DNA of 64,000 bases from Lentibacillus amyloliquefaciens (lineage in GTDB: Bacteria; Bacillota; Bacilli; Bacillales; Amphibacillaceae): positions 2,294,001 to 2,358,000 of the forward strand of contig NZ_CP013862.1 in the NCBI RefSeq assembly GCF_001307805.1, in the 5' to 3' direction. The position numbers and the translations under genes were made by a program. This document shows positions 7,121 through 46,140 of the stretch, one piece after another. The notes below the pieces were generated by a model. It searched no databases, was not told the origin of the DNA, and saw nothing but the letters and a program-made list of their open reading frames with translations. The first letter of the stretch is position 1. The number at the start of each line of letters is the position of its first letter.

Positions 7121-8608
7121 TTAGTTATTTGGTTTGCGACCGCGGTTTTTCTGATAATTCCCTTGACGGTTACGCCCGCCTTGGTTGCGTCCACCCTGAT
7201 TGCGTCCGCCTTGGCCACGTTTACCGTAAAATTTCTTGTTCTGTGGTCTGCCTTTATTATTCTTGCCGCCGCCCTGGCCTTTTTTCACGCTGATCGGCTG
7301 AACGGATGAAATATTGACGGGAGCGTTGCGACGTTCTTTTGTCATCATTTTAAGAGCAGCAGCCACAACTGTCATTGAATCGTAATCCTGGAGCAGTTCA
7401 CTGGCTGTCTCCTGATAATCCTGCAAATCAAGCTTGTCAATCTTTTCCCGGATCTTATCTGCTGCAGCCTGCTGCTGACCGCGCTTCGCTTCCTGATGAG
7501 TCGGCGGTGCCATCCGTTTCATTTTGCTTTTGGTTACTTTCTCAATCAAATTTAAATGCGCCATTTCACGTGGTGTGATGAATGATACGGCTTCCCCGGT
7601 ACGTCCTGCTCTTCCGGTACGGCCGATACGGTGTACATAGCTTTCAGGATCCTGCGGTATATCAAAGTTATAAACGTGCGTTACACCGGAAATATCCAGT
7701 CCCCGTGCCGCGACATCAGTTGCTACCAGTACATCGACACGATTATTTTTAAATTTGTTTAAAACCGACATCCGCTTTCCCTGTGTCAAATCTCCGTGGA
7801 TGCCTTCTGCACGGAACCCGCGGGCATGAAGACCGTCCGTGATTTCATCCACCCGTTTTTTCGTCCGGCTGAAGACAATTGCAAGTGCAGGTGCATAAAA
7901 GTCCAAATGATTGGTCAACGTATCGAATTTATGCTTCTCAGGAATTTCAATGAAATACTGATCGATATTTTCAACAGTCATTTCCTTTGCTTTCACTTTG
8001 ACTTCTTTAGGATTGTTCATGAGATTGGTTGCAATATCACGGATTTCTTTTGGCATCGTTGCAGAAAATAATAATGTCTGCCGTTCTTCCGGAATGTTTT
8101 TCAAAATATCACGGATATCGTCAATGAAGCCCATGTTCAGCATTTCATCAGCTTCATCGAGAACAGTTGTCTGAATTTCTGTCGTCCGGATTGTTTTTCG
8201 GCGCATATGATCGAGCAGTCTTCCCGGTGTGGCAACGACGATGTGCGGACCATCCTTTAAAGCACGGATTTGCCGTTCCATATGCTGTCCGCCGTAAACC
8301 GACATGGAGCGTATGCCTTTTATTTTACCAAGCCGGTTCAGCTCCTCAGCTACCTGGATGGCGAGTTCCCTTGTTGGTGCAACAACCAACCCTTGAATTT
8401 TCCGCTCTTTCGGATCAATTCTTTCAATCATCGGGATCCCGAATGCCGCTGTCTTTCCGGTTCCTGTCTGAGCTTGTCCAATTACGTCATTTCCTTGTAA
8501 AGCCTGCGGAATCGTTTCTGCCTGAATCGGCGTTGCTTCTTCAAATCCCATCTTTTGCAATGCGTCCATAATAGGCTTTGAAATATTTAGTTCGTTAAAT
8601 GTTGTCAC
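7121..8608 (-). CDS. cshA: DEAD-box ATP-dependent RNA helicase CshA
   Basis: RNA helicase of 495 residues acting in mRNA turnover and ribosome assembly, especially in the cold. Motifs are in order: Q motif near the N-terminus, [12 protein letters not shown] (I), PTRELAIQ (Ia), [11 protein letters not shown] (II), SAT (III), [13 protein letters not shown] (VI). The C-terminus is a basic Gly/Arg/Gln/Asn-rich tail with repeated RNQGG units, an RNA-binding extension. Start is GTG at 8608 (family start [10 protein letters not shown]), with AAAGGAGA about 10 nt upstream. It is preceded by a leader of about 330 nt containing the structured element at 8634-8937, so RNA-level regulation is likely. Confidence 0.95.
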
Positions 8609-8633: not shown

Positions 8634-8937
8634 TGTTCAAAAATCCGGTCACGTCAAAATGTCATTGTTGGCTTGTTTTTCCGCTCCTTGGAAAAGAAAA
8701 CCACCTCTCTGGTGTGTGGAGCTAATGATGCTTTCACTATGCTCCTGTTTCAGAGCCTAAGAATTTTCTGCTAAAAACCTCTATACCCCTTTTGGGGGAT
8801 GCAGAAATCCACACTTCTCGGGGAAGGCCCTTGTTCAAAGAAAACAGCCACCAACTTTTGACGTCCGGCGGTGATCATGCAGGCTTTGCATCAGGATTAT
8901 ATAGCCTGCGATTCGTTTTAACCTCCCTTTTGAACAC
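8634..8937 (-). ncRNA. Structured 5' leader element of cshA (type shared with 35763-35968)
   Basis: On the minus strand the element starts GTGTTCAAAAGGGAGGTTAA and ends CCGGATTTTTGAACA; TGTTCAAAA and TTTTGAACA can pair to close the whole element. The 3' part (CTTTTCCAAGGAGCGGAAAA then ACAAGCCAAC, later GACGTG and CCGGA) is nearly the same as that of the element at 35763-35968. The centre contains several local hairpins, for example CCCC-AAAA-GGGG and GGAGC/GCTCC. It begins about 6 nt after the predicted transcription start and ends 26 nt before the GTG of cshA. No ORF of note. Riboregulator, cold-sensing leader or dispersed repeat are all possible. Confidence 0.55.
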
Positions 8938-8949
8938 CGATTTTTCCAA

Positions 8950-8980
8950 ATTATATTATTTAACGTAAGATAGCTGTAAA
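8950..8980 (-). promoter_or_regulatory. Predicted sigma-A promoter of cshA
   Basis: On the minus strand, TTTACA (8980-8975) and TATAAT (8955-8950) are separated by 19 nt. The predicted start falls just before the structured leader. Confidence 0.45.
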
Positions 8981-8981
8981 A

Positions 8982-9011
8982 AAAGGCTTTTCCCGGTAAT
9001 GGAAAAGGCCT
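8982..9011 (-). terminator. Terminator-like hairpin upstream of the cshA promoter
   Basis: AGGCCTTTTCC/GGAAAAGCCT followed on the minus strand by TTTTTT. No minus-strand gene ends here, so it may shield cshA from antisense read-through. Confidence 0.5.
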
Positions 9012-9160
9012 CCTTCGTGAAAATTCTCATCCAACATGACAGTTATTTTATAATAACACAGGAATTCGGTATATATCCACTACTTGATATATGATTTTTC
9101 GCTAAGAGCATGATAAAATGTATGAGATTCAATAATGAAAAACGCCAAAAGGAGGTCTTT

Positions 9161-20848: not shown

Positions 20849-21005
20849 TATCTAAAAACCCCCTCATAACATTCTATCTACATTGTACCTATTTTACGCC
20901 CGTGTGTCTTTTAGTTTGTTTACCCCGCATGTAACTACCCGTAAATGCCCGGTCCGTTTCTGTTCGGGGGCAACAAGACGCCTGATAATTAAGCCTTTGT
21001 TCCTT

Positions 21006-35523: not shown

Positions 35524-35671
35524 ATAAAGTGAATCTTCAATCAGTGGGGGTTTTCTTTCTTCCCCACTGATTGTTAGATGAACGAATCGGACATTTACTG
35601 GCAGCCATCCCCCACCTAATCTTCATCGTTTTTGCGAACATTTGAAGTGGGGGTCCTACTGCCAGTTACAT
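35524..35671. repeat. Dispersed repeat, copy 2, with two nested hairpins
   Basis: Left part (35524-35592) starts ATAAAGTGAATCTTC, forms CAATCAGTGGGG/CCCCACTGATTG, and ends ATGAACGAATCGGAC, matching 31836-31900. The right part pairs ACTGGCAG/CTGCCAGT and CCCCCAC/GTGGGGG. Non-coding. Confidence 0.6.
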
Positions 35672-35748
35672 GCGGGATAAACGTCTCGAAAAGAGATTTC
35701 TATCCAATTCCGGAAAGGCTGGATAATGAAAAATATAACAAAATCCCT

Positions 35749-35754
35749 TATACT
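35749..35754 (+). promoter_or_regulatory. -10 box ahead of the second structured leader
   Basis: TATACT lies 8 nt before GTGTTCAAAA, the same layout as the cshA leader. The -35 region is weak (ATGAAA at 17 nt). Confidence 0.4.
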
Positions 35755-35762
35755 TTAAGTGT

Positions 35763-35968
35763 GTGTTCAAAAAGGAGGATAAAAAGGACCGAGAAGTTCG
35801 AGGCGGTGCAGTTTCGAGCAGCGGAATGTATGTATTTAGATACATGAGCACAAGTAATGCTTCCCTGAATCCGCATCGCATGCCGGAAAAGCGGTTTCCT
35901 TTTCCAAGGAGCGAAGAAACAAGCCAACTAGAAACACCGACGTGTCATTTTTTCCGGACTTTTGAACA
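35763..35968 (+). ncRNA. Structured leader element (type shared with the cshA leader)
   Basis: Starts GTGTTCAAAAAGGAGGATAA and ends CCGGACTTTTGAACA, so TGTTCAAAA can pair with TTTTGAACA. The 3' domain CTTTTCCAAGGAGCGAAGAA then ACAAGCCAAC, GACGTG and CCGGA closely matches the leader at 8634-8937. The centre is different and about 100 nt shorter. It ends 39 nt before the ATG of the zinc-ribbon membrane protein gene. It could also be read as a 71-residue ORF, but that has no coding character. Confidence 0.55.
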
Positions 35969-36007
35969 ACCTCTTTAATTAAAAGGTACTATATAGGATG
36001 TGATTGA

Positions 36008-41953: not shown

Positions 41954-41973
41954 ATAACCCCTCCTAAACAAAA

Positions 41974-42008
41974 AAAGGCTTACCTCACAAATGAGATAAG
42001 CCTTTTAG
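41974..42008 (-). terminator. Terminator of the cold-shock gene
   Basis: AAAAGGCTTA.CTCA/TGAG.TAAGCCTTTT hairpin with an AAAT/CAAA loop, followed by TTTTTTTG on the minus strand. Confidence 0.85.
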
Positions 42009-42019
42009 TTTATAATCGA

Positions 42020-42220
42020 TTAAACAGCTGTAACGTTAGCTGCTTGTGGTCCGCGGTTTCCTTCAACGATTTCGAATTCAACGTTTTGACCATCTTCAAG
42101 TGTTTTGAAACCTTCTGCATTGATTGCTGAGAAATGAACGAATACGTCGTCTCCCTCTTCGCGCTCAATGAAACCAAAGCCTTTTTCAGCGTTAAACCAT
42201 TTTACTGTTCCAGTCATCAT
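42020..42220 (-). CDS. CspA-family cold-shock protein
   Basis: RNA chaperone of 66 residues with RNP1 KGFGFIE and RNP2 VFVHFSA, full OB-fold length. ATG at 42220 (or 42217) follows GGAGG. In this family the long 5' leader itself folds as a thermosensor. Confidence 0.96.
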
Positions 42221-42430
42221 AATAAATGACCTCCTTATACAAATATGTGCAAAGTAATTGAACCATAAATACTTTTACACCACTTGTTAAAGAGATCGTA
42301 AAGTATTACTAATTTCAATTTCATTTGCTTAAGTACACTCTACTACCTTTTGAAACAAAATGCAAGTGGCTTTAGTGAATTTTTTATTTTGATTTTTTCA
42401 ATCGACAACAGACGAGCCCTGGCAAAACAA
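42221..42430 (-). promoter_or_regulatory. Probable long 5' leader of the cold-shock gene
   Basis: The 302-bp gap to trhO is AT-rich with no ORF. Cold-shock mRNAs commonly have leaders of 100 nt or more; a leader starting around 42330-42400 is likely, but no promoter can be fixed with confidence. Confidence 0.35.
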
Positions 42431-42522
42431 ATGAAAACATGATAAAATACTCTTCTGCAAGATTAAAATTAAGTATCCACTACATTTGTATCTTGCAAAT
42501 ATTAAGTGTAGGTGGTATCAAC

Positions 42523-45782: not shown

Positions 45783-46010
45783 AAAAAATCCTCCGTCCTG
45801 AAAAAGGGACCGAGGTCTGTGGTGGTACCACCCTTGTTTGCAACCAATCACGGACTGCACACACTTGGTATCTTAACGGTTTAAAACCGCGCACATCTTT
45901 CGGCAAAAACCTTCCGATGGCGAACTCAGAGGCAGGTTCTTAGTCTGTATCTTTGGAAATTTCCACCAGCCATTTCCTCTCTGTCTAAAGACCTCTCAAA
46001 CTATACTAAT
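45783..46010 (-). promoter_or_regulatory. T-box riboswitch of proS (tRNA-Pro)
   Basis: On the minus strand the T-box AAGGGTGGTACCACC (45835-45821) can pair through TGGT with the ACCA end of uncharged tRNA. It is followed by a terminator hairpin CCTCGGTCC/GGACGGAGG (45815-45790) and a T-run. Stem I lies at about 45920-45990 (CAGAG.../CTCTG), where a CCT (proline) in GAACCTGCC is a candidate specifier codon. Uncharged tRNA-Pro should prevent termination and raise proS. Confidence 0.9.
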
Positions 46011-46140
46011 CCTCATCAGCGTTTCATCTATTATATTTTTTAATATATATGGATGTGCCGTTAAAGTCAAGTCGCACCTGTAAAGAGCAGCTAATTCGAT
46101 GCTGTACGGCAAATAAATAATCTGATTGAAAACATCGGCC

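Follow-up and report, generated by a model that had tools for sequence, protein, structure and literature searches.

The 304-nt stretch that precedes cshA in the 64,000-nt window of Lentibacillus amyloliquefaciens DNA (the whole stretch analysed here) is probably an old MITE-like mobile repeat, now degenerate and composite, that was inserted into the leader of the gene, the control of which is likely to be attenuation at a hairpin. The gene, which we take to be cshA by orthology, was matched in all 40 genomes searched, this one included. Read on the minus strand from 8937 to 8634, the element starts with the letters GTGTTCAAAAG and ends with TTTTTGAACA, and the 25-nt gap between its end and the GTG start codon holds AAAAAAGGAG. 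The original prediction described a stretch with complementary ends that resembles a second one at 35763–35968; both the stretch and a resemblance beyond chance are real. Taken alone, the cshA element folds to −95.8 kcal/mol (z of −3.1, with 0 of 100 shuffles as good).

Table 1 Features of the cshA locus and of the second locus in the window.
Feature	Position	Strand	Remarks
cshA, DEAD-box RNA helicase	7121–8608	−	495 aa, intact ORF, GTG start
Element in the cshA 5′ leader	8634–8937	−	Diverged, composite mobile-repeat copy
3′ terminal inverted repeat of the cshA element	8634–8643	−	TTTTTGAACA; A-rich flanking target decayed
Block common to longer family copies	8667–8712	−	TTTTCTTTTCCAAGGAGCG...CAAGCCAAC
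Inner unit of the cshA element	8832–8937	−	Closes with a second internal CTTTGAACA
5′ terminal inverted repeat of the cshA element	8928–8937	−	GTGTTCAAAA; from family consensus
Terminator-like hairpin and U-run, candidate cshA attenuator	8976–9016	−	Between promoter and element
cshA promoter (consensus scan)	9050–9079	−	TGGATA-18-TATTAT, TG-extended; transcript predicted to start at ~9043
Promoter-like ATGAAA-17-TATACT of the downstream gene	35726–35754	+	Recognised by eye in congeners, G002 included
5-bp target duplication TTTAA, left	35754–35758	+	
Second copy, full termini GTGTG/ACCTC (earlier 35763–35968)	35759–35973	+	Model R1, 105.2 bits, E-value of 6.8e-24
5-bp target duplication TTTAA, right	35974–35978	+	

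Common to the two elements is a 36-nt core with 92% identity, and the block at 8667–8712 is 85% identical over 46 nt to 35883–35928. The likeness that had been noticed in the last ~75 nt is not confined to that end: the first ~22 nt of the cshA element match the family too (95% identity, with an E-value of only 0.012 when taken alone). Elsewhere in the same genome, the best blastn match of the cshA element covers 38 nt (95%, E-value of 5.8e-10). Owing to their scores with the family covariance model, 13.8–15.7 bits for the cshA copy and 105 bits for the copy at 35763, the two are not equal members of the family, and the cshA copy is absent from the own-genome model matches at E ≤ 0.01. Both this bare recognition by the model and a 5-bp target duplication that is not exact at the cshA copy weigh against its reading as an insertion.

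The inner unit of the cshA element is itself a weak model match (13.8 bits, E-value of 0.28 in 64 kb), and the second internal CTTTGAACA within it suggests a nested or composite copy. Nucleotides 55–162 of the element were matched in the congener G002 only, among 156 family-level genomes (E ≤ 1e-6, at most four candidates scored per genome), and nucleotides 162–304 give a 74% alignment to two copies in genome G009. We refer to the cshA copy as a diverged composite because of its weak model score, the restriction of nucleotides 55–162 to G002 and the likeness of nucleotides 162–304 to the G009 copies; its middle may have a different origin.

The family to which both elements belong is present in many copies. 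Searches of the own genome by blastn with the 35763–35968 element returned at least 72 matching pieces (40 of 80 candidates scored), and the covariance model returned 62 rows at E ≤ 0.01, one being the reverse reading of another copy, at no fewer than 61 places (150 of 1,382 candidates scored); with 40 candidates scored in each DNA search, these copy numbers are lower bounds. Complete ends of the family read GTGCGTGTTCAAAAAG and CTTTTTGAACAnCCTC, an imperfect 16-bp terminal inverted repeat, read in copies as GTGCGTGTTCAAAAAG / CTTTTTGAACAACCTC and decayed at the cshA copy. Allowing one mismatch or fewer, the left terminal repeat has 42 matches in the own genome, 21 on each strand, and the backwards control has none; a narrowly defined pattern for the element ends proved too strict, recovering a single site. 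The copies are modular: in the 44 that were measured, TGTTC and GAACA delimit anything between 39 and 417 nt, and some inner blocks are optional.

Comparison of the flanks over all offsets places a 5-bp, AT-rich duplication just outside the ends. Exact duplications flank 14 of 21 own copies (mean of 2.4 and maximum of 7 for re-paired flanks) and 13 of the 40 diverged copies from other genomes (control mean 1.1, maximum 5), for which the mean letter identity of the flanks is only 0.63, against 0.48 in the control. Among copies from outside the order, 6 of the 12 used have an exact duplication (shuffled mean 0.8, maximum 4); eleven of these come from the same phylum and one from the same class, and the other 8 of the 20 at hand are without one or both clear ends. 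The imperfect terminal inverted repeat together with this target duplication shows that the family moves as DNA, and empty sites are present in relatives at both loci examined, the cshA leader and 35763. Copies would be mobilised in trans by a putative transposase. Weighing against the insertion reading is that no autonomous partner was found: the ~340 nt behind the left repeats of the own genome hold short copies and decayed ends, without a transposase or an autonomous copy (ORFs listed for locus L020 only). Plasmid and phage collections gave no match to a 171-nt query holding one full copy.

A second repeat family, seen by eye as TTCAnTCAGnGG..GGGCATTTA.GG.CAGTTA..ATGCGGG, is present in the window at 35530–35690 and 20918–20943. 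Besides occurring alone, it forms one of the inner modules in long mobile-repeat copies (L002, L003, L068, L250 and L261).

Distributed over both strands (25 plus, 26 minus), the copies of the mobile repeat point in the same direction as the next downstream gene in 31 of 51 cases and in the opposite direction in 19, with no gene called in one; within 150 nt of a downstream ORF, 14 share its direction and 16 oppose it. For this count 4 of 55 rows were dropped as duplicates or for misplaced ends, and genes were taken from a simple ORF picker and not from a gene finder. The consistent position upstream of genes that had been predicted is not seen, and the picture is largely that of scattered copies in mixed orientation, which the original prediction had named as an outcome that would speak against it. 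The imbalance of 31 to 19 sits less easily with the insertion reading.

The body of the family folds into a long rod whose internal loops are conserved, and this fold is kept across the order. Alignment A3 comprises 47 near-full-length copies (9 from earlier searches and 38 of 40 fetched, with mean pairwise identity of 78%) and leaves out truncated and longer modular copies. RNAalifold finds 39 pairs in it, of which 25 show double changes, against a mean of 11.9 in shuffled alignments, with 177 double-change cells against 57.2 and 96.0% of cells pairing against 87.7. The covariation score of 0.297 is reached by none of 500 shuffles (0.147 on average; these ignore relatedness, so that the signal is strong but not a probability) and drops to 0.049–0.075 when partners are slid by 1–3 columns. 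Covariation is strong in the inner helices; the pair of columns 60 and 92, for example, is CG in 20 copies, GC in 18, AU in 6 and UA in 1. The closing stem, which the original prediction expected to be both conserved and covarying, is conserved to near invariance, but its double changes, in 5 of 10 pairs, are mostly those of single copies. The conserved internal loops of the rod read AGAAGUUC / AGAAAUUCG, with GGAGCGUA..UACGUGAG at the apex. The expectation that the two stretches belong to one family is supported, and so is that of a conserved, covarying fold for this family, as seen in 47 copies.

Compensatory changes maintain the fold outside the order too, less cleanly. The outer-helix letters of copies L342 and L343, from other classes, are largely different from those of L012 and still pair. 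Alignment A5, in which such copies are mixed with the rest, folds at −11.2 kcal/mol with 27 pairs, 20 of them with double changes, and its weaker consensus is probably due to the misalignment of distant copies when letters alone are used.

An alternative that we think possible but doubtful is that this fold works at the DNA level, as a hairpin or cruciform that might serve a transposase or recombinase as substrate. In its favour, the ends are terminal inverted repeats, and the range of lengths from TGTTC to GAACA means that movement can do without much of the body. Against it, the balance of G-U and A-C favours one strand acting as RNA: cells with G-U outnumber those with A-C by 63 to 22, by 41 to 22 when one column is removed and by 17 to 7 when counted as columns, all uncorrected for relatedness. 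This excess of G-U suggests that selection probably acts on the plus-strand RNA.

The copy at 35763 adjoins the downstream side of the promoter-like sequence at 35726–35754. In G002 the TTTAA site is uninterrupted at this locus, and nine further congeners are, by eye, without the element; this copy is younger than that of cshA. Occupying the same TTTAA target in G009 (locus L269, upstream of a zinc-ribbon gene) is a different repeat variant, which suggests a preferred insertion target at promoter regions. An AT-rich target preference would explain the position of the 35763 copy behind a promoter. Alone, this copy folds moderately (z of −1.98, with 6 of 200 shuffles as good). The claim that the elements lie behind a promoter both times stands at 35763, where the promoter-like sequence is kept by eye in congeners, and falls at cshA: the promoter that was proposed 6 nt upstream of the element scores weakly (TTTACA/TAATAT, 9 of 12 positions) and, by eye, is not kept in G002.

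Alignment of the cshA leaders of 12 same-genus genomes shows the element in the own genome and in G002 only, the other ten being without it; insertion in the common ancestor of these two would be the simplest account. By eye, the G008 leader carries another insert and that of G005 a possible remnant of the 3′ end. In G010 and G011 an unrelated high-copy repeat of ~97 bp lies at the cshA leader site; this repeat (L084:1260–1500) has at least 42 and at least 43 matches in the two genomes, with 40 of 220 and 40 of 238 candidates scored.

Between the own genome and G002 the element has an identity of 69.7%, taken over the longer length, and an identical run of 33 nt. The whole cshA spacer, at 75.8%, comes third among the 20 spacers that could be aligned (from 26), the best of which, at 41972–42438, holds a short ORF and is not pure spacer. 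The 19 other aligned spacers have a median identity of ~55% (range of 20–85%), and fourfold sites of cshA are 63% identical. The element has thus changed less than most of the aligned spacers, and some function may have been retained in the cshA copy after insertion, a hint that runs against the insertion reading. The short ORF at ~42012–42219 (minus strand), around which identity to G002 is 85%, may encode a protein resembling a cold-shock protein.

A recruitment of the insertion into the cshA leader of these two genomes, with a long helix of CCGGACGTCAAAAGTTGG with CCAAC..TTTTGACGT..CCGG retained, is accordingly conceivable, and we consider it rather unlikely. The 33-nt identical run spans the 5′ arm of this helix, the 3′ arm is largely kept and the identity of the element lies above the spacer median; the comparison involves two sequences only, and 4 of the 19 other spacers, one with a short ORF, are conserved as well or better.

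It is very improbable that the element works in cis as an RNA leader for cshA, acted on by the helicase or by temperature and belonging to a family of such leaders. Its stable fold, its conservation in G002 above that of most spacers and the covarying structure of the family are what such a leader would show, but the element is not a cshA-specific leader because it is absent in 10 of 11 congeners, its family stands in both orientations to genes and its copies are flanked by 5-bp target duplications. What survives of the original RNA-leader proposal is that the family fold covaries and that cshA does have a leader that looks regulated; that the element itself is the functional leader is not supported.

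Located ~110 nt upstream of the element, with the terminator-like hairpin between them, is the promoter at 9079–9050. Of the 12 same-genus leaders, 11 carry its TGTGTTA box, and the remaining one begins at a contig edge. A promoter scan gives 5 promoter-like matches over both strands, the one proposed 6 nt before the element among them, against 1.6 in shuffles. Across 33 cshA upstream regions of the family and close outgroups (window 8976–9079, L073–L097 and L103–L110), a promoter-like motif is found by script in 26 and a hairpin followed by a T-run in 26 with hand-set anchors, 21 having both, with the motif just upstream of the hairpin. An automatic scan sees the hairpin in only 17 of the 33, which tells against the proposed attenuator. 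The hairpin letters vary by genus with pairing kept (GAGGC/GCCTC, AAGCCT/AGGCTT, AACCTC/GAGGTT; from an alignment without scored controls), and the distance from the T-run to the cshA start codon ranges from 42 to 405 nt. The insert would have lengthened the part of the leader that runs from this conserved terminator-like hairpin, close to the promoter, to the ribosome binding site. Owing to the conservation of the promoter box and the hairpin, cshA is likely to be controlled by attenuation at this upstream hairpin rather than by the insert.

The order of promoter, short leader and intrinsic terminator in attenuation leaders of Bacillota, of the T-box and vmlR types, is the same as that upstream of the cshA element; unlike those, the cshA leaders tested (window and 20 loci) have no Rfam match. 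Among the 20 cshA loci the only match was Bacillaceae-1, outside the leader of L114. With the Rfam 15 gathering score, the 64-kb window contains a T-box elsewhere only, and relaxed thresholds on the cshA and 35763 elements gave chance-level matches only; Bacillaceae-1 RNA (RF01690) scores 15.2 bits in the cshA element against a threshold of 35 (E-value of 4.4), which is no match. The T-box leader in question lies at 45802–46028 on the minus strand (107.7 bits). According to PMC6606889, the cshA promoter is active early in the cold; that paper mentions no transcription start, upstream region, 5′ UTR or terminator. Among the open-licence papers listed, titles and abstract openings described neither a cshA attenuator nor the present repeat family.

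Eleven leaders, for example those of Lysinibacillus, Sporosarcina and Planococcus (L114, L118, L120, L121, L124, L126, L127, L128, L133, L140 and L143), are conserved over 250–304 nt, with a stem that joins the 5′ end to the region before the ribosome site. In these Planococcaceae-type leaders an early terminator is followed by a second hairpin, CTCGG..CCGGG. Covariation is modest: 4 of 34 pairs have double changes, equalled by 33 of 500 shuffles, and the score of 0.160 against 0.121 in shuffles is reached by 0 of 500. Rfam matched nothing within five of these leaders. A structured cshA leader in general is therefore plausible, though it is not the 8634–8937 element.

Matches to the repeat were found in 95 of 159 family-level genomes and in 65 of 397 order-level genomes from 29 of 135 genera (at most five candidates scored per genome). 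At the level of the phylum, the covariance model, used with stricter filters, 15 candidates scored and a limit of E ≤ 1e-4 in each genome, gave a match in 14 of 199 genomes, which represent 12 of 162 genera; all three counts include the own genome. A copy in G525, from another family, is 95% identical to an own copy and for this reason suggests transfer between lineages. Rfam searches of 20 loci with family copies (E ≤ 1) found only neighbouring tRNA. Some low-scoring phylum matches are without terminal repeats: L348 and L353–L355, from other classes, and L356, from the same order, have a rod-like core without them and may be a different RNA with a common core. These cores would suit a dispersed small-RNA gene that spreads through an RNA intermediate and not by a transposase, which we regard as a very improbable account of the family, given its terminal inverted repeats and short duplications of fixed length, which are typical of DDE transposition. 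A tentative extension of the insertion reading is that a Bacillota-wide mobile element with terminal repeats carries the conserved rod RNA as a required part, needed either for movement of the element or as small-RNA cargo; the core would also exist elsewhere without terminal repeats.

Classical MITEs have terminal inverted repeats, a target duplication and a high copy number, and are without coding capacity. The present family resembles them in all four respects, no coding capacity having been seen, and differs in two: an RNA-like fold that covaries has been preserved in its body across the order, and no parent insertion sequence was found. It is a MITE-like repeat with a selected fold, and the closest known system is bcr1 of the Bacillus cereus group. 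According to PMC6542083 and PMC3446304, bcr1–bcr3 are MITE-like repeats of that group, linked to the AT-rich 5-letter motif TTTAT and often in UTRs; from these two papers together with PMC2267715, bcr1 has tens of copies per strain and is listed with a conserved structure, and about half of all bcr copies are transcribed. As far as these descriptions go, the present family is like bcr1 in being an intergenic mobile repeat of the 100–400 bp class with 5-bp AT-rich flanks and a conserved fold. Unlike bcr1, which is called restricted (PMC6542083) and was compared by description only, it spans many families.

The case is a warning against taking an element for a gene leader because it covaries. 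In short mobile repeats the ends are commonly regarded as all that is needed, and here the shape of the body is kept too; a fold maintained by compensatory changes is unexpected for a parasite sequence and raises the question of what the fold is for. For cshA, the conserved terminator-like hairpin behind the promoter makes attenuation, and possible autoregulation, directly testable.
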